Shown here: positions 24,721 to 37,984 of the stretch, piece after piece
Layout of the letters: the number at the start of each line of letters is the position of its first letter
Numbering within the stretch: the first letter of the stretch is position 1
NCBI GenBank assembly: GCA_025964775.1
Contig: JAOPYE010000040.1
Coordinates: 248,001-312,000, forward strand
From: Marmoricola sp.
Lineage (GTDB): Bacteria > Actinomycetota > Actinomycetes > Propionibacteriales > Nocardioidaceae
DNA length: 64,000 bases
Direction: 5' to 3'
Notes under the pieces: generated by a model
Databases searched by the model: none
The model's input: only the letters and a program-made list of their open reading frames with translations
What the model was told of the DNA's origin: nothing
Program-made: the position numbers and the translations under genes

Positions 24721-25752
24721 ATGCTTGCCGACCTGCTCGACCGCGAACGTCTGCGCATCGCCGGTATCGTCCTCGGCGGCTTCGTGCTGCTCGAGCTGTG
24801 TGCCTTCGGCATCGCGCAGATCCTGGTGGGCGGCACGCCGTCTCCCGATCCGACGGCCATCGCGTCGCGCCTCGAGCCGATCAACTCCTACGGCGTGGTC
24901 CTGGCTCCGCACGCCGAACCCACCAGGCTCGGTACGCCGCGCGGGATGGGGTCCGCCCACGCGGGGGTGGCGGTGGTCGCACTGTCCGAAGTCGACTACG
25001 TCGACACCAGGGATGGCCCTCGTCGTGCCGCCGAGGGCAGCACGCTGCTCGCCTTCCAGGTCGGGAACTGGGCCTGCGAGAACGCCGGGACGCCGTGCGC
25101 GAGCTGGCGGACGCTTCATCCCGCGGTGGTGATCGACGGCTCCTCCGAGGCCCTGCCCAGCGGTGGCAGCACGTTCGTCGCTGTGCTGCCGCCGGGCACC
25201 AGTGATGTCGAGCTGACGATCGATGCCGACGGCTTTCGACAGTCCGAGTCGCTGCTCGAGAACTTCCCTGCTGAGTCGAACATCCTGATCCTCGGCGCCA
25301 GGGACCGCGAGAAGCAGCTGGTCCTGAACCAGACGTTCCAGCTGACCGAGCACACCAGCATCCCGCTGCAGGCAGCCGACGGGCAGGTCTCCGACGTGAT
25401 GCTGCGCAACTTCACGGTGGCCTACGTCCAGCGCCGCTTCTTCTTCGACGGCGCGACGCCCGGCACTCCGCGCCAGGTCTTCCTGATCGTCAACGCGTTC
25501 TACTCCTATCCGGGCCAGACCCAGCAGTACGTGCCCCTGGACGAGGTCGAGCTCGTGGACGAGAACGGCATCCACTACCGCGCACGGGACCTCGACCCCG
25601 ATCCGTCGGTGGCGCTGCTCGGGTTCCAGGTCCCCGCGGACCTGCGCAAGGCCACCGTGGTCATCGGGGGAGTCACCCACAAGACCTCGACCACCGGGCT
25701 GCCGTACACCTCGACACTGGACGTCAAGAAGATCCCGCTCAGCCTGAGCTGA
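24721..25752 (+). CDS. Hypothetical membrane-anchored extracellular protein (343 aa)
   Basis: Single N-terminal TM IAGIVLGGFVLLELCAFGIAQILV then a long soluble domain. Confidence 0.7.
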   Translation: MLADLLDRERLRIAGIVLGGFVLLELCAFGIAQILVGGTPSPDPTAIASRLEPINSYGVVLAPHAEPTRLGTPRGMGSAHAGVAVVALSEVDYVDTRDGPRRAAEGSTLLAFQVGNWACENAGTPCASWRTLHPAVVIDGSSEALPSGGSTFVAVLPPGTSDVELTIDADGFRQSESLLENFPAESNILILGARDREKQLVLNQTFQLTEHTSIPLQAADGQVSDVMLRNFTVAYVQRRFFFDGATPGTPRQVFLIVNAFYSYPGQTQQYVPLDEVELVDENGIHYRARDLDPDPSVALLGFQVPADLRKATVVIGGVTHKTSTTGLPYTSTLDVKKIPLSLS

Positions 25753-25925: not shown

Positions 25926-26969
25926 ATGGCAGGATCGTCGAGCCTTCCGACCCGCACGTCCTTGCGCGTCGTCGACGAGGTCGAGGACGTCCCGCGCAGG
26001 GTCGTGGCGCGCCAGTCGACCCAGGACCTGGCGTTTACCCACGGGGTCCGGTCCGTCGGCTTCCTGACCCTGGTGATCGTCTCGTCGATCGGCATCTTCC
26101 TCGGTGTGCAGGCCAAGCCGACCCTGCAGCACTACGGCTGGTCCTTCTTCACCGAGTACCGCTGGCTGCCCAACCTGGACACCATCGGCATCGCGGCGGC
26201 GTTCGTGGGCACGGTTGAGGTCGCGATCGTGGCGCTGGCCATCGCCTTCCCGCTCTCACTGCTGAGCGCGCTGTTCGTCTCCGACTGGGCACCGGCCTGG
26301 ATGAGGCCGCTGCTGATCCGGCTCATCGACCTGATGGCCGCCGTGCCCGGGATCGTGTTCGGCCTGTGGGTGCTGCTCTTCATCCAGCCACAGGCCACCC
26401 ACGTCGCGCACTGGCTCAGCGAGTACTTCGGCTGGATCCCCCTGTTCAAGGTGCACACCGACGTGCACTACCCGATCTGGGACCAGGCGCCGGGCTTCGC
26501 GTCGTACGAGGGGTCCGCGTTCATCGCAGGCATCGCGGTGTCGATGATGATCTTCCCGATGGCCACCTCGGTGATGCGCGAGGTCTTCTCCGAGGCGCCA
26601 GCCGGCGAGAAGGAGGCCGCGCTAGCACTCGGCGCCACCCGGTGGGCGATGGTCCGGACCGTGGTGCTGCCCTTCGGCCGCAGCGGCATCGTCGGCGGCA
26701 CGATGCTCGCGCTGGGTCGCGCGCTCGGCGAGACGATCTCGGTGCTCCTGATCATCTCCGAGGCGTTCAAGATCAAGTGGAATATCCTCGAGTCGGGCAC
26801 CGCGACCATCTCCGAGGTGATCGCGTCCAAGTACAACGAGGCCACGCCGGCGCAGCTCTCTGCGCTGCTGACCGCGGGGTTCGTGCTCTTCCTGATGACC
26901 CTGGCCGTCAACACGGTCGCTGCCTCGATCGTGGCGCGCAGCCGTAGCGGAGCGGGGACCGAGCTGTGA
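25926..26969 (+). CDS. pstC: Phosphate-type ABC transporter permease PstC
   Basis: GTVEVAIVALAIAFPLSLLSALFVSDWAP...EAALALGATRWAMVRTVVLPFGRSGIVGGTMLALGRALGETISVLLI. Confidence 0.9.
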   Translation: MAGSSSLPTRTSLRVVDEVEDVPRRVVARQSTQDLAFTHGVRSVGFLTLVIVSSIGIFLGVQAKPTLQHYGWSFFTEYRWLPNLDTIGIAAAFVGTVEVAIVALAIAFPLSLLSALFVSDWAPAWMRPLLIRLIDLMAAVPGIVFGLWVLLFIQPQATHVAHWLSEYFGWIPLFKVHTDVHYPIWDQAPGFASYEGSAFIAGIAVSMMIFPMATSVMREVFSEAPAGEKEAALALGATRWAMVRTVVLPFGRSGIVGGTMLALGRALGETISVLLIISEAFKIKWNILESGTATISEVIASKYNEATPAQLSALLTAGFVLFLMTLAVNTVAASIVARSRSGAGTEL

Positions 26970-28078
26970 GCGTGATGACGGCTCCCGAGGTCGTGAGCGA
27001 GGACCCCGAGGACACTCCGGCTGTGCTGGCCGACGAGGTCGAGCACGTCCGCAAGACGCGACCGCGCACCAACGAGGACGACATGACCCTCGTCGGTTCG
27101 GTCCTCGGCGGACTGGCCACGACCTGGCTGCTCTACGAGCGGGTGCTGCCGTTCTCCGGGGCCCTGGGCTTCTTCGTCTCCTGGTACCTGGTGTTCCTTG
27201 CCTTCTACGCCGGCCTGACGGCGGTCAACCGGCCGCGTGCGGTGGTCGTCGACCGGGTGATGACCTCGCTGGTCATCGCCGCCCCGTCGGTGGTCGGGCT
27301 CGCCCTGGCGAGCACCGTGGTGGTGACCCTGTCCCACGGGCTCCCCGCGCTCCTGCACGTGAACTTCTACACCCACGACATGTCCGGGGTCCGGCCGAGC
27401 GACCCGTACACCACCGGCGGTGCGCTCGCTGCGTTGGTCGGCACCCTGATCGAGGTGTCGATCGCGGTCGCGATCGCGTTGCCGCTCGGCGTGATCACCG
27501 CGATCTACATGTCCGAGGTCGGGGGTCGCGGCGCGCGGCTCGTGCGCACCATCATCGAGTCGATGACCGCGTTGCCCTCGATCGTGGCCGGCCTCTTCAT
27601 CTACTCGGTGTTCATCGCCCACTTCCACATGCCGAGGTGCGGGTTCGCCGCCGCGCTGGCGCTGGCAGTGATGGGCCTGCCGATCATGGCCCGGGCCAGC
27701 GACGTGGTGCTCCGGGTCATCCCGGGTGGACTGCGCGAGGCCTCCTACGCCCTGGGTGCCGGCAAGTTCCAGACCGTCTGGCACGTCGTCCTGCCGACCG
27801 CGCGGCCCGGCCTGGCCACCGCGCTGATCCTGGGCATCGCCCGGATGGTCGGGGAGACGTCTCCACTGTTGCTGACCTCGGGTGCCTCGTCGTTCCTGAA
27901 CTGGAATCCGTTGCACAACCCGATGAACTCGCTCCCGCTCTACATCTTCAATGCCGTCAAGTCCGGGGTGCCGCGCAACGAGGTGCGGGGGTACGCCGCA
28001 GCGGTGGTGCTGCTGCTGATCGTGCTCGCCCTGTTCCTGCTCGCCCGACTGGTTGCCCGTGGAAGGAACCGAGGATGA
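26966..28078 (+). CDS. pstA: Phosphate-type ABC transporter permease PstA
   Basis: GTLIEVSIAVAIALPLGVITAIYMSEVGG...REASYALGAGKFQTVWHVVLPTARPGLATALILGIARMVGETSPLLLTSG. Confidence 0.9.
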   Translation: MSVMTAPEVVSEDPEDTPAVLADEVEHVRKTRPRTNEDDMTLVGSVLGGLATTWLLYERVLPFSGALGFFVSWYLVFLAFYAGLTAVNRPRAVVVDRVMTSLVIAAPSVVGLALASTVVVTLSHGLPALLHVNFYTHDMSGVRPSDPYTTGGALAALVGTLIEVSIAVAIALPLGVITAIYMSEVGGRGARLVRTIIESMTALPSIVAGLFIYSVFIAHFHMPRCGFAAALALAVMGLPIMARASDVVLRVIPGGLREASYALGAGKFQTVWHVVLPTARPGLATALILGIARMVGETSPLLLTSGASSFLNWNPLHNPMNSLPLYIFNAVKSGVPRNEVRGYAAAVVLLLIVLALFLLARLVARGRNRG

Positions 28079-29688
28079 CCCGCCTGACCAAGCGAGGCCT
28101 GCTCGCCGTCGTACTCCTGCTGATCGCGCTGATGACCCCTGCGGTCGCGGACGCGAGCTCGAGCCACACCCTGATCCAGGGGTCCGGGTCCAGCTGGGCT
28201 GCCAACGCGATCAACCAGTGGGTCGCCGACGTCGCCAACTCCGGCGAGCAGGTGGTCTTCACCGCGAACGGTGCTGCCCAGGGACGCAAGGACTTCGCCA
28301 ACGAGGCCAACGACTTCGGCGTCTCGGACGTCCCGTTCCTCGGCAAGGACCCGACCACCGGCCAGGCCGACACGTCCGAGGGGCGCGCGTACGCCTACCT
28401 CCCGATCGCCGCCGGCGGTACGTCGTTCCCGTACCACGTCGAGGTCGCCGGCAAGCTGGTGCGCAACATCCGGCTGTCGGGTCAGACGGTGGCGAAGATC
28501 TTCACCAGCGCCATCACGAACTGGGACGACCCGGCGATCACCAAGGACAACAACGGTGTCGCACTTCCCTCGATCCCGATCATCCCGGTGGTGCACTCCG
28601 AAGGTGCCGGTGTCACCAACCAGTTCACCCGCTGGGTGGCCAAGGAGTACCCGTCGATCTGGGCGCCGTGCAACGGCGGGATCGATGCCCAGACGGAGTA
28701 CTTCCCGCTGAACTGCGGAAAGTCCTCGGGCAACGAGAAGGCGCAGTCGGGCTCCGACGGCGTCATGAACTTCATCAAGAGTTCCGGCGCCAACGGCTCG
28801 ATCGGCATGGAGGAGTACTCCTACCCGCTGCTCTCGAACTTCCCGGCCGCCAAGCTGCTCAACAAGGCCGGGTACTACACGCTGCCGACCCAGTACAACG
28901 TCGCCGTCGCCCTGACCCGGGCCGTGATCGACAACAACCCGGCGTCGCCGACGTACCTGACCCAGAACCTGGACAACGTCTACAGGAACCCGGACAAGCG
29001 TGCCTACCCGCTCTCGTCCTACGTCTACGCCATCATCCCGACGTCGGCTACCGACCCGCGGATGACCACGGCCAAGCGTCAGACGGTCGCGGACTTCCTC
29101 TACTACTCGATCTGCCAGGGCCAGGCCGAGATCGGGCCGATCGGCTACTCCTCGCTGCCGATCAACCTGGTCACGGCCGGTTTCTCCCAGATCGCGAAGC
29201 TCAAGGCGGCCGACGCCGGCGTCAACCTGACCAACCGCAACGTGAGCACCTGCCACAACCCGACTTTCATCGCCGGCGAGCCGAAGGTGAACCACCTGGC
29301 CCAGATCGCGCCACAGCCGCCTGCCTGCGACCGGCTCGGCGCTGGTCCCTGCGCTGCCGGTGTCGGCGCCTACAACGGCAGCAAGCCGTCGAACGCTGCC
29401 AACAGCACCGCTACCGGCGGCACCACCACGGGATCCGCCGCCGTCACGCCCAGAACGCCGGCCACGGCCGGCTCGCCGGTCGGAGGAGAGCTCGGCGGGA
29501 CGGGGACGTCCGACGGCACCGCGCTCGCCCAGACCGGTGCGGTGGTCCCGGCAACGCTCGGCGCTGATGCGAATTCCGCACCGTCGACGCTGCTGACCGT
29601 CGTGCTCGTCGGGCTGTTCCTGCTCGTGGTCGCGGTGCCGGCAGGACTCGGTGCCCTGCTCGTACGCCGTCGAGGGCCCATCTCATGA
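28075..29688 (+). CDS. PstS-like substrate-binding protein with LAQTG sorting signal, TM and RRR tail
   Basis: Signal peptide; LSGQTVAKIFTSAITNWDDPAI (PstS-type); C-term LAQTG...STLLTVVLVGLFLLVVAVPAGLGALLVRRRGPIS. Confidence 0.88.
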   Translation: MTRLTKRGLLAVVLLLIALMTPAVADASSSHTLIQGSGSSWAANAINQWVADVANSGEQVVFTANGAAQGRKDFANEANDFGVSDVPFLGKDPTTGQADTSEGRAYAYLPIAAGGTSFPYHVEVAGKLVRNIRLSGQTVAKIFTSAITNWDDPAITKDNNGVALPSIPIIPVVHSEGAGVTNQFTRWVAKEYPSIWAPCNGGIDAQTEYFPLNCGKSSGNEKAQSGSDGVMNFIKSSGANGSIGMEEYSYPLLSNFPAAKLLNKAGYYTLPTQYNVAVALTRAVIDNNPASPTYLTQNLDNVYRNPDKRAYPLSSYVYAIIPTSATDPRMTTAKRQTVADFLYYSICQGQAEIGPIGYSSLPINLVTAGFSQIAKLKAADAGVNLTNRNVSTCHNPTFIAGEPKVNHLAQIAPQPPACDRLGAGPCAAGVGAYNGSKPSNAANSTATGGTTTGSAAVTPRTPATAGSPVGGELGGTGTSDGTALAQTGAVVPATLGADANSAPSTLLTVVLVGLFLLVVAVPAGLGALLVRRRGPIS

Positions 29689-32480
29689 CCCGCCTGCGCC
29701 TCATGACCAGCCTGCGCCGCACCGCCCTCGCCCTGGTCGCGCTGACCCTGGGCCTTGCCGGCGTGGGCATCACCGCGCCCGGCCACGCCGCTGTGCAGCC
29801 GTCCAGCACGGTGGTGAGCAGGTCGGCGTCCGGGACCGGTGCCGTCACCAGGACCGAGACCATCGTGCGCCAGTCTTACGCTGCCGACGGCTCCACCACC
29901 CAGGTGGATCGTCGTACGGTCAGGCTCGGCGTCTCGGCGACCACCAACCTGCGCGGTCGCCAGGAGCTCAACGTCACCTGGACCGGCGCGCACCCGACCG
30001 GGGGACTGGTCAGCGACGTGAACTCCTCGGCCGGGGTCAACGAGGAGTACCCGTTCGTGCTCCTGGAGTGCCGCGGCGTGGACTCGACCAGCGTGCCGGC
30101 GGCCAGGCAGATCAGCCCGGAGACCTGCTGGACCCAGACCTCGGTCGAGCGCTACAACAGCAACCTCAACACCACCTACCCGGCCTGGCGTTCGGACGCG
30201 TTCGAGACCGACGCGAACCGGGCGCGCATCGTCGGTGCGCCGTCGCCGCGTCCGCACGCGTGCCCCAGGGCCGCGGCCGCCGAGCGCTGGATCCCGATGA
30301 TCGCCGCGAACGGCACCGTCTACCAGGGTGGCGACTTCGGCTGCGCGGGACAGGCGCCCGAGGCCTCGAACATCGGCGGGACCGGCCTGCCCAGCAACGC
30401 GACGTACGGAATCACCGGCACCGACGGCGACGGCAGTGCCGAGTTCAGTGCCTGGACCGAGGACGAGGACGCGACGCTGGGCTGCAGCAGCTCGGTGCCG
30501 TGCGCGCTGGTGGCGATCCCGATCATGGGGATCAGCTGCGACGGCTACGGCAGCCAGCTGCCCGCGGCCGACCGGCCCGACTCAGCGACCGGCTCGGACG
30601 CCCAGGCCCAGTGCCAGAGCCCCGACGTCTTCAGTCCCGGTCAGATCGCAGTCCCGGGGACCCAGCCAAACCTGGCCACCTCGGGGGCGCTCTGGTGGTC
30701 GGCGTCGAACTGGCGCAACCGGATCACGGTTCCGCTGCAGTTCGCGGTGTCTTCCAACGTCTGCTCGGTGGTCTCGAAGGAGAAGCCGCTGGCGATCTAC
30801 GGCTCGACGCTCCTCAACGAGCTGACAGCCCAGTGGGAGCCGAAATTCTGCACCGACGAGAAGCTGTTCCCGTTCGTGCACGTCCAGACGGCCGAGGACT
30901 CAGCGAGGACGCTGCTCAACGTCGGCAACGTCGAAGGCGCGTTCGGCAGCCTGATGCCGGACGGTGGGTTCGGAAAGCCCGTGGTGCAGGCGCCGATCGC
31001 GGTGACAGGCTTCGCGATCAGCTACGTCATCGACGACGCGAACGGACGGCCGTACGCCAGGCTGCGCCTGGATCCGCGGTTGCTGGCCAAGCTGCTCAGC
31101 CAGTCCTATCCGGCGAACTCGATCGGCAAGGGCTCGGATCCCGCGATCGCAGCCAACCCGGTCAACATCACCGAGGACCCGGAGTTCCAGGCACTGAACC
31201 CCGGGCTTCCGCACTACACCGCTGTCGAAGCGGCTTCGACGCTGCTGACCCTGTCCTCGGACGCCGACATGGTCTACGCGCTGACCAGCTACCTCAACGA
31301 CGATCCCGATGCGCGGGCGTTCCTGGACGGCAAGGCCGACCCGTGGGGGATGGTCGTCAACCCGGCGTACAAGCATGTCCAGCTGCCGGTCTACTCCTGG
31401 CCGCTGCAGGACAACAACCTCGCGACGAGTGCGTACATCAGCGGTGGGAACAACCCGTGCTACACCCACAGTCCGGGCCCGTACCTGTCGCTGGTCGCGA
31501 ACCCGACCGGCTTCGTGTCCACGATCGTGCTGAACATGCAGTACGCGATCTCCAACGTCGGCATCGCCTGCCCCAACGGCGACCCGAACGACGTGTCCAC
31601 CCTCAAGCTCTCCACCCAGGGTCGGCAGCAGCCGGGGTTCCGGTTCGTCCTCGGGATCGTGCCGCTGAGCTCCATCGCGCGCTACAACCTGACCGCTGCG
31701 TCGTTGCGGTCCGGACCGTCACCGACGACCGCAGGCACCGCGGCGTCACGTGCTGCGGACACGGTCAGCGCCGGGACCTACGTCGCGCCTGACAATGCCG
31801 GGCTCAGGGCCGCAGCTGCCCTGTTCACCGCTGACAAGGCCGACAAGACCTGGAAGGTCGACTACGACGCTCTGCAGACCGCTGCCGCCAGGACCGCTTA
31901 TCCCGGCACGCTTCCGGTGTACGCCGACATCCCGACCCGGGGGCTGACTGCGGCCGATGCGAGCAAGTTCGCGTCGTTCCTCACCTACGCCGCCGGGACC
32001 GGCCAGACACCGGGCCTGCTCAACGGCCAGCTGCCCCCGGGCTACCTGCCGCTGACCAGGGCCAACGGACTTGCCGCCCTCGCCGGGTACACAGCGCGGG
32101 CTGCGCTCGCGGTCAAGGCGCAGAAGGGTTTCGTGCCCTCGCTGGACGCGGCGGACGACGTGACCACGCCGACCAGCCAGGGCGGCACGGGTCCGTCGAG
32201 CCCGAGCGCGCCGGTCCCCGGCGCCACTCCGGGGTCCCCGACCGGTAGCCCGGCGGTCGGCGCCGCGGCCGCGCCGCAGACCTCGGTCGCGTTGTTCAGG
32301 ACGGTCGGTCACGCCAGCCCGCTGGGCCGTCTCGGCCTGCCGCTGATGCTGCTCACGTTCTTCCTGCTCGGTGCGGCCGGGATGCTGCTGCGCTGGTCCG
32401 AGGTCATCGTGCCGGTCGTGGTCTCGGCCGCCCGCGTCGCGAGGCCCCGTACGTCGGGCAAGCGGAAGGGCTCGTCATGA
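29685..32480 (+). CDS. Large (931 aa) exported PstS-like protein with C-terminal TM anchor
   Basis: Signal peptide; FAISYVIDDANGRPYARLRLDPRLLAKLLSQSYP PstS-like segment; C-term GRLGLPLMLLTFFLLGAAGMLL + basic tail; overlaps both neighbours. Confidence 0.8.
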   Translation: MTRLRLMTSLRRTALALVALTLGLAGVGITAPGHAAVQPSSTVVSRSASGTGAVTRTETIVRQSYAADGSTTQVDRRTVRLGVSATTNLRGRQELNVTWTGAHPTGGLVSDVNSSAGVNEEYPFVLLECRGVDSTSVPAARQISPETCWTQTSVERYNSNLNTTYPAWRSDAFETDANRARIVGAPSPRPHACPRAAAAERWIPMIAANGTVYQGGDFGCAGQAPEASNIGGTGLPSNATYGITGTDGDGSAEFSAWTEDEDATLGCSSSVPCALVAIPIMGISCDGYGSQLPAADRPDSATGSDAQAQCQSPDVFSPGQIAVPGTQPNLATSGALWWSASNWRNRITVPLQFAVSSNVCSVVSKEKPLAIYGSTLLNELTAQWEPKFCTDEKLFPFVHVQTAEDSARTLLNVGNVEGAFGSLMPDGGFGKPVVQAPIAVTGFAISYVIDDANGRPYARLRLDPRLLAKLLSQSYPANSIGKGSDPAIAANPVNITEDPEFQALNPGLPHYTAVEAASTLLTLSSDADMVYALTSYLNDDPDARAFLDGKADPWGMVVNPAYKHVQLPVYSWPLQDNNLATSAYISGGNNPCYTHSPGPYLSLVANPTGFVSTIVLNMQYAISNVGIACPNGDPNDVSTLKLSTQGRQQPGFRFVLGIVPLSSIARYNLTAASLRSGPSPTTAGTAASRAADTVSAGTYVAPDNAGLRAAAALFTADKADKTWKVDYDALQTAAARTAYPGTLPVYADIPTRGLTAADASKFASFLTYAAGTGQTPGLLNGQLPPGYLPLTRANGLAALAGYTARAALAVKAQKGFVPSLDAADDVTTPTSQGGTGPSSPSAPVPGATPGSPTGSPAVGAAAAPQTSVALFRTVGHASPLGRLGLPLMLLTFFLLGAAGMLLRWSEVIVPVVVSAARVARPRTSGKRKGSS

Positions 32481-33406
32481 CGATCCTGGTCCCACAAGCC
32501 CCGTCGCCGCGGACCGTCGTACGGACCGAGGCTCCGATCGACGGCAAGCCGCCGGCGCGCCATCCACGTGCCGAGGTGCAGCTGGCGGTGTCGCGGGCGA
32601 TGATCGTGATCGCCCTGTTCGCCGCCTGGATCCTGGTCTACCTGACCGTCTTCAGCGGGTTCGAGCAGAACCACGAGCAGAGCCGGCTCTACGGCCGGAT
32701 GCGAACCGAGCTCGCGCTCGGCGTTGCCCCGACCGGGGCCCCGATCGCGGCCGGTGACCCGGTAGCGGTCCTCTCGATCCCGCGGCTGGGCCTGAAGAAC
32801 GAGGTCGTCGTCGAGGGCACCGCGACGAGCCAGCTGCAGGACGGGCCCGGCCACCTGCGCGGCTCGGTGCTCCCCGGGCAGCACGGCGTCAGCGAGCTGC
32901 TGGGTCGTGCGCTGTCGTTCGGGGCTCCGTTCGGCTCGCTGGACACGCTCCGGGCCGGCGACCCGATCACGGTGACCACCGGTCAGGGCACCTTCACCTA
33001 CCTGGTCTCCGGTGCCCGTCACCAGGGCGACCCGGTACCGACCGCCCCGGCGGCGAACGACGGCCGGCTGACCCTGGTCAGTGCTGTGGGCTCGGGCTTC
33101 CTCGCAGGGCTGGCGCCGTCGGAGACGATCTACGTGGACGCGACGCTGAACGGTAAGGCCGTCGGGGCCGGACCCGTGACCAACCAGCTCTCCGCCGAGC
33201 AGCCGATGAGCACGCACGTCACCAGCGGGACGCTCGCGTTCCTGGCCCTGAACCTCCAGCTGCTGCTGATCGTGCTGCTCGCCACCGCGTGGCTGCGGGC
33301 CCGCTGGTCCTCGCTCGGCGGCTGGGTCGTCGGCACGCCGATGGTGCTGGCGGCGCTCTGGGCCGTCTCGTCCCTGGCCAGCCAACTGCTGCCGAACCTG
33401 GTCTGA
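32477..33406 (+). CDS. Sortase-fold protein lacking catalytic His/Cys/Arg (pseudosortase)
   Basis: VLSIPRLGLKNEVVVEGTATSQLQDGPGHLRGSVLPGQHGVSELLGRALSFGAPFGSLDTLRAGDPITV...LTLVSAVGSGF: sortase scaffold, but GHR and TLxTC motifs substituted. Confidence 0.8.
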   Translation: MTILVPQAPSPRTVVRTEAPIDGKPPARHPRAEVQLAVSRAMIVIALFAAWILVYLTVFSGFEQNHEQSRLYGRMRTELALGVAPTGAPIAAGDPVAVLSIPRLGLKNEVVVEGTATSQLQDGPGHLRGSVLPGQHGVSELLGRALSFGAPFGSLDTLRAGDPITVTTGQGTFTYLVSGARHQGDPVPTAPAANDGRLTLVSAVGSGFLAGLAPSETIYVDATLNGKAVGAGPVTNQLSAEQPMSTHVTSGTLAFLALNLQLLLIVLLATAWLRARWSSLGGWVVGTPMVLAALWAVSSLASQLLPNLV

Positions 33407-33653: not shown

Positions 33654-34862
33654 ATGTCGAAGAGACGGATCGCCGTTGGCGCCTCGTTGCTCGCCGCCGT
33701 CCTGGCTGGAGGTCTCGCAGCCAGCCAGATCCCTGCGAACGCAGACGGGGCCCCGCAGACCGACGACGTCGTCGGCGTCGGTTCCGACGTCATGCAGACG
33801 TCGCTGAACTTCCTGTCCGACGGCTTCGGCTCGGACCCGGGCTACAACACGGCGGGCAACAAGAACCGGCTCTTCAGCTTCGACGCCAGCGGTGATGCGA
33901 ACGGTCGCAAGACCTTCACCGACCCGGCCCTAGGCACCCCGGGCGTCCTGAACAGCACGATCATCCTGCGCGCCGGCACCAAGCCGGTGCAGCGTCCCAA
34001 CGGCGGCTCGGTCGGGCTCGCGGCGCTGCTCGCCGACGGTGGCGCCAACCGGATCAGCTTTGCCCGGAGCCCCAACCTGCCTACGGCCACGCAGCAGACC
34101 AACGCGCAGAAGACGGTGGCCCAGGGCGGGCTGGGCAGTGCGCTGCACTCGGTCCAGATCGCCACCGACATCGACTACATCGCCACCGCGACGACCACCA
34201 ACGCGCCCGCGCACCTCTCGGGCACCGACCTGGTCAACATCTACAACGGCACCTACACCACCTGGGGCCAGATCCCCGGCTACTCTGGAACGTCCACCCA
34301 GGCCGCCCAGCCGATCAAGGCGCTCATCCCGCAGGTCGGCGCTGGCATGCGGAATGTCTTCCTGAACGGCCTCAAGGCGTTCAACGGTGGCAACGCGGTC
34401 ACCGTGCCGGCCGGCATCACCCAGGTGCAGCAGAACGACCCGACCGCGATCACGAGCCTGTCCTCCACGGACCAGCCCAACGCGATCGTGCCGTTCCCGC
34501 TCGGTCGGTACAACCTGCTGAGCAACGGCTACTTCCTGAACCCGGACACGGCCTACTCGGCCAGCAACCCGGCAGCCCCCCTGACCACGGCGGGCATCAG
34601 CCTGATCACGGACGGCACCACCGGCGCGACTCCGACGGCGTGGTCGGTGACCTTCCCCTACTACGTCATCTTCCGTCAGTCGGACCTCGACAACGACCCG
34701 GCCTGGCAGCCCGGCGGCACCCTGAACTGGGTCCAGACCCTGTTCAGCAATGCCGGCGGTCCGGCGCCGTTTGTCAACACGGCACCCGGCAAGGCCCTGC
34801 TGACCGATGCCGGCGTCACGCCGGCGTACTCGGACCTGGGCTCCACCACCAGCGGTCCGTAG
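33654..34862 (+). CDS. Exported PstS-like substrate-binding protein
   Basis: RBS AAGGAAAGG before ATG 33654; signal peptide MSKRRIAVGASLLAAVLAGGLAAS; VVGVGSDVMQTSLNFLSDGF...GTDLVNIYNGTYTTWGQIPGY. Confidence 0.85.
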   Translation: MSKRRIAVGASLLAAVLAGGLAASQIPANADGAPQTDDVVGVGSDVMQTSLNFLSDGFGSDPGYNTAGNKNRLFSFDASGDANGRKTFTDPALGTPGVLNSTIILRAGTKPVQRPNGGSVGLAALLADGGANRISFARSPNLPTATQQTNAQKTVAQGGLGSALHSVQIATDIDYIATATTTNAPAHLSGTDLVNIYNGTYTTWGQIPGYSGTSTQAAQPIKALIPQVGAGMRNVFLNGLKAFNGGNAVTVPAGITQVQQNDPTAITSLSSTDQPNAIVPFPLGRYNLLSNGYFLNPDTAYSASNPAAPLTTAGISLITDGTTGATPTAWSVTFPYYVIFRQSDLDNDPAWQPGGTLNWVQTLFSNAGGPAPFVNTAPGKALLTDAGVTPAYSDLGSTTSGP

Positions 34863-35643: not shown

Positions 35644-37131
35644 GTGACCACCACCAGAAGGTTTGGCCGAGCGAGAAGCTTCCGGGTTGCTGCCCTGACC
35701 CTCGTGCTGGCGACCGTGGCCACCACCGGCCCGGTCGTCAGCCAGGGCGCGAACGCCGCCTCCCCGTCATCGCCACCGTGGCAGACCGGGACCGGCACCA
35801 GCTTCCAGCAGACCGACCCGCACGAGGTCGGCACGTTGAAGTTCTACAACGCGGCCGGCACCCAGATCTTCGGGGGCAGCACGACGACTGCTCCGTTCGC
35901 GGCGTACGTGCAGTCCTCGGTCGCGATCCGCGCCGGTGACAACCGCGCCGAGCTCTTCGCCTACCAGCCGAACGCCGGCGACTACCCCGGCAACTGGTCC
36001 GGCTCCCTGCTCACCGCGGCCTCGACGTACCCGGTCGCCACGCCTCCGGGCTCGGTGGACCCTGCCCTGCCCGCAGTCACCGCGACGTCGGGCGACACCA
36101 CGTTGTCCGACTTCCTCACGGCCTACCCGCTGACCGACACCACCTCGGGCTACCAGGGTGTCCTGGAGCTGCGCCTGCGGACGGGCAATGCCGGGACCGA
36201 CGAGACCTCCTCGACCAGCTACGCAGTCGCGGACATCATCGTCACCGGCACGACGTGGGAGGTCTACGGCACCAAGGCCGACTCGAGCACCAACGAGACC
36301 GTGCCCGCCAGCGCGACCTACGGCACCGGCTTCCAGGTGACCGCTTCGGTCGTGGGCGCTGGCGCGACCCCGACCGGGACCGCGACCCTCAAGGACGGCA
36401 CGACGACGGTGGGAACCGCGGTCGGTCTCGACGGCTCCGGTAACGCGACGTTCAACGTCAGCGGCACCGCGCTGGGTGGGGGTGTCCACAACCTGACGGT
36501 GACCTACAGCGGCGACTCGGCGTACAACACCTCGACGTCGTCCGCGAGCCCGATCACCATTGCCAAGGCCGCGACCACCACGACGTCGACTGTGCCGACC
36601 AGGGCGACCTACGGCACGGCGTTCCACGTCACCGCGGCCGTCGGTGGACCCGGGGCTCGCACCGGAAGCGCCACCCTCAAGCAGGGAAGCACCGCGCTGT
36701 ACACGGTGAACCTCGTGTCGGGCACGGCGAGTTTCACCGTCGCCGGCACCAGACTGGCGCCTGGCACGCACCCGCTGACGGTCACCTACAACGGCTCGGT
36801 CTCGCTGCTGACCAGCACCTCGACCTCGAAGTCGGTCGTGATCGGCAAGGCGGTCGGCCACGCGGTCAATACGCTGAACCCGAAGACGATCAGCCACACC
36901 AAGCGGGCGAAGCTGATCGTCAAGGTGACCGCGACCGGCGTCGTGCCCACCGGCACCGTCACGATCTACGACGGCACGAAGGTGATCGGTCACGCGACCC
37001 TGAGCAGGGGCACCGTCACCTTCCTGCTGCCGAGGCTCCGGCGTGGCCTGCACCGGATCCACGTCCGGTACGGCGGCTCCGCGTACGTCAGCGCTGCGAC
37101 GGCAGCAACCGTGACCTTGAAATCCACGTAG
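35644..37131 (+). CDS. Secreted protein: unnamed shared domain plus Ig-like repeats
   Basis: GTG start with GAGAGGA RBS; signal peptide; AELFAYQPNAGDYPGNWSGSLLTAASTY; then repeats of the form TYGTxFxVTAxVxG...TGxATLKxG...GxHxLTVTYxG. Confidence 0.82.
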   Translation: MTTTRRFGRARSFRVAALTLVLATVATTGPVVSQGANAASPSSPPWQTGTGTSFQQTDPHEVGTLKFYNAAGTQIFGGSTTTAPFAAYVQSSVAIRAGDNRAELFAYQPNAGDYPGNWSGSLLTAASTYPVATPPGSVDPALPAVTATSGDTTLSDFLTAYPLTDTTSGYQGVLELRLRTGNAGTDETSSTSYAVADIIVTGTTWEVYGTKADSSTNETVPASATYGTGFQVTASVVGAGATPTGTATLKDGTTTVGTAVGLDGSGNATFNVSGTALGGGVHNLTVTYSGDSAYNTSTSSASPITIAKAATTTTSTVPTRATYGTAFHVTAAVGGPGARTGSATLKQGSTALYTVNLVSGTASFTVAGTRLAPGTHPLTVTYNGSVSLLTSTSTSKSVVIGKAVGHAVNTLNPKTISHTKRAKLIVKVTATGVVPTGTVTIYDGTKVIGHATLSRGTVTFLLPRLRRGLHRIHVRYGGSAYVSAATAATVTLKST

Positions 37132-37162: not shown

Positions 37163-37984
37163 ATGACCGAAGTTCTCGACCGCACCGCGGTGGTGCCGTC
37201 CGTCGCCGGACCGGCATCGCTGGAGGCACGCCGGGTGTCGGCCTGGTTCGGGCAGCGCAAGGTGCTCGACCGGGTCTCGCTCGAGATGGCCCCTGGGCAG
37301 GTCACTGCGCTGATCGGCCCGTCGGGCTGCGGGAAGTCGACCTTCCTGCGGATCCTCAACCGGATGCACGAGCTGGTGCCGGCGGCCCGGCTCGCCGGTG
37401 CGGTGCACCTCGACGGAGTCGATATCTATGACCCCGAGCGGCGGCTGACCGATGCCCGGCACCAGATCGGGATGGTCTTCCAGAAGCCCAACCCGTTCCC
37501 GGCGATGTCGATCGCGGACAACGTCCTGGCGGGCCTGAAGATCACCGGGAGGACGATCGCGAAGTCGGATCGGGAGGCGTTGATCGAGGACAGCCTGACC
37601 CGGGCCGGTCTGTGGACCGAGGTGCGCGACCGGCTCAAGGCCCCCGGCGCGACGCTCTCGGGTGGACAGCAGCAACGACTGTGCATCGCGCGATCGCTGG
37701 CGGTCCGTCCGCGGGTCCTGCTGATGGACGAGCCGTGCTCGGCGCTCGACCCGACCTCGACCCGGGTCGTCGAGGAGACGATCAGCGAGATCTCGAGAGA
37801 CGTGACGATCGTGATCGTGACCCACAACATGCAGCAGGCGGCACGGGTCTCGGACCAGTGCGCGTTCTTCCTGGCCGAGCACGGCACCCCTGGCGTGATC
37901 GTCGAGCAGGGCCCGACCGATGCGATGTTCGGCGAGCCCCAGGACCGGCGTACGGCTGACTACGTCAACGGCCGCTTCGGCTGA
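37163..37984 (+). CDS. pstB: Phosphate-type ABC transporter ATPase PstB
   Basis: IGPSGCGKSTFLRILNRMHELVP, GMVFQKPNPFPAMSIADNV, LSGGQQQRLCIARSLAVRPRVLLMDEPCSALDPTST. Confidence 0.95.
   Translation: MTEVLDRTAVVPSVAGPASLEARRVSAWFGQRKVLDRVSLEMAPGQVTALIGPSGCGKSTFLRILNRMHELVPAARLAGAVHLDGVDIYDPERRLTDARHQIGMVFQKPNPFPAMSIADNVLAGLKITGRTIAKSDREALIEDSLTRAGLWTEVRDRLKAPGATLSGGQQQRLCIARSLAVRPRVLLMDEPCSALDPTSTRVVEETISEISRDVTIVIVTHNMQQAARVSDQCAFFLAEHGTPGVIVEQGPTDAMFGEPQDRRTADYVNGRFG

Follow-up and report, generated by a model that had tools for sequence, protein, structure and literature searches.

A family of sortase-fold proteins without catalytic residues encoded in Pst-type importer operons of actinobacteria

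Sortases are enzymes that fix proteins to the bacterial cell wall. Those of class E, represented by the enzymes from S. coelicolor (SrtE1, 5CUW), S. avermitilis (5GO5/5GO6) and T. fusca, share their fold, an N-terminal transmembrane (TM) helix and the scaffold GxGH...LPGQ...GxxxxxGxPF...LTLxT with the protein described here, which is encoded in a 64,000-nucleotide stretch of Marmoricola sp. DNA (the window) and which we refer to as pSrt, for pseudosortase. Some active relatives also possess a C-terminal TM hairpin, which ends in LLP. In class E sortases, a conserved tyrosine in the β3/β4 loop selects the alanine of LAXTG, and an arginine bonds the P3 carbonyl of the LAXTG peptide (PMC5148588). 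The other closely related system is the phosphate importer PstSCAB, as the operon containing pSrt holds homologues of PstC, PstA, PstB and PstS, the PstS fold being present in two of the partner proteins. Bacterial pseudoenzymes such as pseudokinases resemble pSrt in that a conserved fold, consistent catalytic loss and purifying selection coincide. In the literature searched, mainly papers free of subscription, we found no description of a pseudosortase, of an inactive sortase or of an ABC importer that includes a sortase-like component, and the pSrt family is likely novel. All five sortase candidates of an Actinoplanes strain have been deleted, and the words "catalytic" and "phosphate" do not occur in that study (PMC13251363).

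Fold and catalytic positions of pSrt

A sequence-only reading of the window had recognized a sortase-like scaffold in the pSrt frame and had proposed a structural comparison with a class E sortase. The scaffold was confirmed by a match to the Pfam family Sortase (PF04203, residues 99–201, E = 1.4e-12, 47.9 bits against a cut-off of 26.6), and an AlphaFold model indeed contains a sortase barrel, residues 90–227 of which align with SrtE (5go6) at a VIA-align Z of 18.0, 2.1 Å and 35% identity. The same structure was matched by phmmer (6.5e-14), and the best agreement with any solved sortase was obtained for 4d70 (Z 19.6). The model was built on a shallow alignment of 17 relatives and has a mean pLDDT of 79, with 83–94 for most barrel blocks and lower values near residues 201–220. 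It leads from a single N-terminal TM helix and its helical stalk through a sortase barrel to a C-terminal hairpin of two TM helices ending in LPNLV. Homology and fold, as judged from the Pfam match and the predicted barrel, place pSrt in the sortase superfamily. It is anchored in the membrane, and we infer that the barrel faces outwards. The frame is intact and overlaps the preceding gene at its 5' end via ATGA, as had been read (Table 1). The first ~30 residues are poorly conserved across the family. Q68, R76 and P306 close to the membrane are invariant, and the length as well as a C-terminal P[N/A/S] ending are conserved in 62/62 proteins.

Table 1. Coordinates of pSrt, its parts and the neighboring genes of the Pst-type operon (positions in the window)
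Feature	Position	Strand	Remarks
pstC-type permease	25926..26969	+	homologues in pSrt operons; matches Pst permease of own genome
pstA-type permease	26966..28078	+	4-nt overlap with pstC; PF00528; TIGR00974 above cut-off
PstS-like binding protein	28075..29688	+	C-terminal TM anchor; LAQTG 16 aa before TM; overlaps pstA by 4 nt
Giant PstS-fold protein, 931 aa	29685..32480	+	signal peptide, beta-rich N-terminal region, PstS fold aa 365–816, C-terminal TM
pSrt ORF	32477..33406	+	ATG start, 309 aa, intact
pSrt TM helix 1	32591..32659	+	aa 39–61; helix continues as stalk to aa 81; hydropathy and model
pSrt sortase barrel	32744..33157	+	aa 90–227; PF04203 and VIA-align
R144 codon	32906..32908	+	catalytic His column, H to R
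A203 codon	33083..33085	+	catalytic Cys column, C to A
T217 codon	33125..33127	+	catalytic Arg column, R to T
pSrt C-terminal TM hairpin	33224..33382	+	aa 250–302; hydropathy and model
PstS-like secreted protein	33654..34862	+	weak TIGR02136 match, E = 0.0012; homologues in many pSrt operons
Membrane-anchored extracellular protein, 217 aa	34940..35593	+	operon member
Secreted Ig-like protein (Big_3_5)	35665..37131	+	start not defined
pstB-type ATPase	37163..37984	+	PF00005; homologues in pSrt operons

The replaced active-site motifs had also been read correctly. Catalytic columns were assigned in an alignment of 84 rows that included 62 pseudosortases and 20 active comparators, and in pSrt they are occupied by R144, A203 and T217. 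The histidine that is present in 20/20 active rows is replaced by arginine in 61 pseudosortases and by lysine in one, and the cysteine, likewise present in 20/20 active rows, by alanine (49), serine (6), glycine (4) or threonine (3). At the arginine position, R in every active row, the pseudosortases mostly have V, T, A, L or another residue. As a basic residue occupies the old histidine position in 62/62 cases, function appears more plausible than mere decay. At column 127, which corresponds to the class E tyrosine according to the alignment rather than to superposition on 5CUW, active rows most often have tyrosine, and R, L, V, Q or E is found in pseudosortases. Residue 202 is T in 47 and S in 13 pseudosortases, and threonine is also found here in most active sortases. 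Newly conserved residues are R144, R181, R197, Q170, D185 and D221; an invariant replacement nucleophile was not found in the pseudosortase alignment.

Three explanations for the missing residues were rejected. A shifted histidine is incompatible with the spacing from G143 to GxPF, which equals that of active enzymes, and a relocated cysteine with the complete absence of cysteines from the window protein. Local mutation or decay is contradicted by an intact copy at locus L009 that is 95% identical to pSrt, by two paralogues in the same genome and by the other relatives, all of which share the loss; the alignment of orthologues that had been suggested as a check shows that none of the 62 pseudosortases keeps the triad.

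According to this alignment, the catalytic His-Cys-Arg triad is lost throughout the family. With its fold kept, its catalytic loss conserved and purifying selection acting on it, pSrt is a pseudoenzyme. Because the triad is missing and the score for NCBIfam class_E_sortase (74.8 bits) lies below the cut-off of 160, we do not file pSrt as an active sortase. This is also a warning for annotation: on a generic Pfam Sortase match these proteins would be called sortases even though they are free of catalytic residues.

Relatives, phylogeny and selection

Relatives of pSrt are encoded in Marmoricola (95%), a Frankiales MAG, Jatrophihabitans, Actinokineospora, a Renibacterium MAG and Kitasatospora. 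Two more full-length copies with ~41% identity, both with GR and LVTA, reside on contig C15 of the same genome. In searches with single sequences, 40 of the 196 genomes from the order to which the window belongs proved to contain pSrt; most relatives come from this one order, and counts of relatives are therefore not independent. A search of a plasmid collection returned one distant, uninformative match.

In a tree calculated for the 84 rows, the pseudosortase state is explained by one change, and 61 pseudosortases are separated from the remaining rows by a branch supported at 100/98. The pSrt family forms a single clade beside active class E sortases. At the base of the pseudosortases, the protein from L054 has exchanged His for Arg and Cys for Ser and has kept the arginine. 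The split was unchanged in a tree that was calculated by a quick method and included two more deep members, L181 and L182 (SH-aLRT 96); both form long branches, the exact placement of which is unsure. The L181 protein, encoded adjacent to pst genes, has R, S and L at the catalytic columns. In the L182 protein (1585–2487 on G516:C199), encoded among PstS-like genes, the cysteine is replaced by serine and histidine and arginine are kept. It is an apparent intermediate that could reveal the order of residue loss. The pattern fits a stepwise loss, with the cysteine going first, inside an operon that would already have been tied to Pst genes, and deep members with serine at the cysteine column, one of them still with histidine, make the loss of the active site traceable.

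For seven pairs of pSrt proteins dN/dS values of 0.08–0.25 were obtained, and the family is under purifying selection. The suggestion that pSrt reflects repurposing rather than decay is thus strongly supported by the loss in 62 relatives that form one clade, by these values and by the conserved synteny described below. The existence of an inactive branch that is widespread and maintained by selection shows a second job for the sortase fold.

A further dead-looking, class E-like lineage was encountered at loci L183 (8879–10333, G124:C178) and L184 (8873–10237, G253:C238), where histidine is changed to tyrosine or phenylalanine and cysteine to threonine. These proteins share the class E-like scaffold with pSrt and differ from it in that the arginine is kept and in that they are encoded outside any Pst operon, next to what we take to be glmU, ksgA and ispE-like genes; they form a separate branch in the tree, and their long tail is rich in proline and terminates with an Asp-rich segment (in L183, GYDDDGDGLIDY).

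Operon context and partner binding proteins

Membership of pSrt in a Pst-type importer operon had not been part of the sequence-only reading. The typical gene order is pstC-pstA-pstS-giant PstS-pseudosortase-pstB, and in the window the first five of these genes are linked by four start/stop overlaps of 4 nt each, as expected for coupled translation. Homologues of pstC, pstA, PstS or giant PstS occur near pSrt in 61/61 loci outside the window, as opposed to 0/38 active-sortase loci, most of which span only ~3.4 kb, with 12 wider ones (5–20 kb) likewise devoid of Pst genes. Among the 196 genomes of the order, giant PstS is present in 39, each of which also contains pSrt, and in the fortieth pSrt genome the operon carries a divergent copy of the giant protein. 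By its linkage to pstC, pstA, pstS and pstB, pSrt is a component of a Pst-type importer operon, and we are highly confident that it represents a conserved actinobacterial family with this operon membership. As a separate canonical pst locus with a lipoprotein-type PstS is located on contig C5 of the same genome, the pSrt module, which is present three times in this genome, is an accessory system. The two further modules are complete and lie side by side on G000:C15 (~9–32 kb, L045 and L046). Directly upstream of pstC in the window, a 343-aa protein without an NCBIfam match is encoded (24721–25752), homologues of which were noted near two other pSrt modules.

The PstS of the window matches PF12849 and reaches 160 bits for TIGR00975, less than the cut-off of 205. 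A C-terminal TM helix containing proline is common to the PstS proteins of pSrt operons (61/61). With regard to the phosphate-binding residues examined (Asp56, Arg135 and Ser-Gly-Thr), the arginine and Ser-Gly are kept in most partners, the Asp56 column holds glutamate in 43/61 copies, and in the window R is changed to H, S to A and T to V, with the Arg and Ser-Gly-Thr site being altered in its clade as well. Because of these alterations the ligand may not be phosphate; phosphate or another oxyanion may be imported. The giant protein did not match any Pfam family. Its AlphaFold model, based on a shallow alignment of 33 sequences, has a pLDDT of 82 and comprises, besides a C-terminal TM helix, a PstS fold that compares with M. 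tuberculosis PstS3 and PstS-1 at Z 31.

The low-complexity tails of the PstS proteins revealed a recurrent motif. DPxTG is present in 35/60 tails, compared with 0.9 expected by shuffling, and its density amounts to 6.5 per 1000 residues in tails versus 0.058 in other proteins of the loci. It is typically situated 29–52 residues (~35) upstream of the C-terminal TM helix and keeps the PxTG of a sorting signal, with aspartate replacing leucine. Other tags are D-E-N-G-N or a cysteine-flanked form, CDPxTGxC (examples of tags are found in L094, L104, L012 and L013), the latter of which suggests a small hairpin. In 25/60 tails, among them that of the window (SPVGG), DPxTG is absent or degenerate; giant-PstS tails do not share it, and it could be an ordinary β-turn.

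Proposed role, alternatives and comparison with known systems

We lean towards the explanation that pSrt belongs to an accessory Pst-type importer as a membrane component without catalytic activity and docks anchored binding proteins; the docking or scaffolding itself has, in our judgment, an even chance of being correct. The extracellular barrel on its helical stalk would grip the juxtamembrane tail of anchored PstS-fold proteins at the place used by a sortase for binding and cleaving its substrate, either in the old groove or on a neighboring surface. As pSrt would leave the tail uncut, the binding proteins would remain docked to the PstC-PstA permease. The handle may be the tail tag DPxTG (or D-E-N-G), in which the PxTG of the sorting signal is retained, and the conserved arginines 144, 181 and 197 could, speculatively, face its aspartate. 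Recognition of DPxTG itself by pSrt is put forward only tentatively, and the same reserve applies to the wider idea that a structural ABC-importer subunit arose from a sortase and holds, instead of cutting, a sorting-signal mimic (DPxTG or variants) on the tails of anchored PstS-fold proteins. If true, this would be a new way of coupling binding proteins to a permease in one-membrane bacteria, and a recognition function would have outlived catalysis.

Several other explanations have to be weighed against docking. A regulator or sensor, the barrel of which senses a ligand-loaded binding protein or an envelope signal and the TM hairpin of which relays it to regulate either PstCA gating or the operon itself, would not tether anything. 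The invariant membrane-near residues and the newly conserved charged ones suit such allostery, as does the fixed place of pSrt in the operon, but a cytoplasmic signaling domain is absent and the N-terminus is short and variable, so that we consider this role unlikely. The sequence-only reading had instead envisaged that pSrt could serve the adjacent LAQTG protein as a chaperone, receptor or tether, and pSrt might then aid or block an active class E sortase as a chaperone, receptor or competitive regulator of LAxTG signals. In keeping with this, the genome also encodes a sortase whose set of motifs is intact (L001: GHR, TTC) and the window PstS does contain LAQTG; yet LAxTG or LPxTG occurs in only 3/61 partner PstS proteins, and 16 residues, several of them polar, separate the window's LAQTG from the TM helix, unlike in a usual sorting signal. 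Together with the loss of the class E tyrosine and of the arginine, this makes recognition of LAXTG improbable as a family role, and LAQTG was rejected as a conserved ligand of the family. The chaperone idea is therefore quite improbable; what survives of the earlier proposal is a tether acting through another feature of the PstS tail, which is now our leading inference.

An enzyme with different chemistry, relying on the serine or threonine beside the old cysteine position or on the new arginine, could be imagined on account of the hydroxyl residue retained at position 202, the deep members with serine in the cysteine column and the histidine and arginine kept in L182. We regard it as very improbable, for the cysteine column is alanine or glycine in 53/62 pseudosortases, Thr202 is a feature of most active sortases as well, the oxyanion arginine is gone and no new invariant nucleophile has taken over. 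Hardly credible is a vestigial gene that persists in the operon but no longer serves a function: the loss of catalytic residues would agree with it, but the low dN/dS values, the conserved length and C-terminal ending, the synteny in all loci and the near-perfect co-occurrence with giant PstS speak against it, and local decay in the window is contradicted by the L009 copy.

Compared with PstSCAB, to return to docking at a Pst-type permease, the pSrt operon stands out by a PstS that is anchored by a C-terminal TM helix and not via a lipobox, by altered ligand-site residues, and by the addition of a giant second PstS and a sortase-fold subunit. The fixed place of pSrt in a Pst-type operon whose binding proteins carry C-terminal anchors points to an importer architecture not described so far and to a way in which these proteins may be kept coupled to the permease. 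Compared with class E sortases, pSrt has neither His, Cys and Arg nor the class E tyrosine, and it is fixed in Pst operons.
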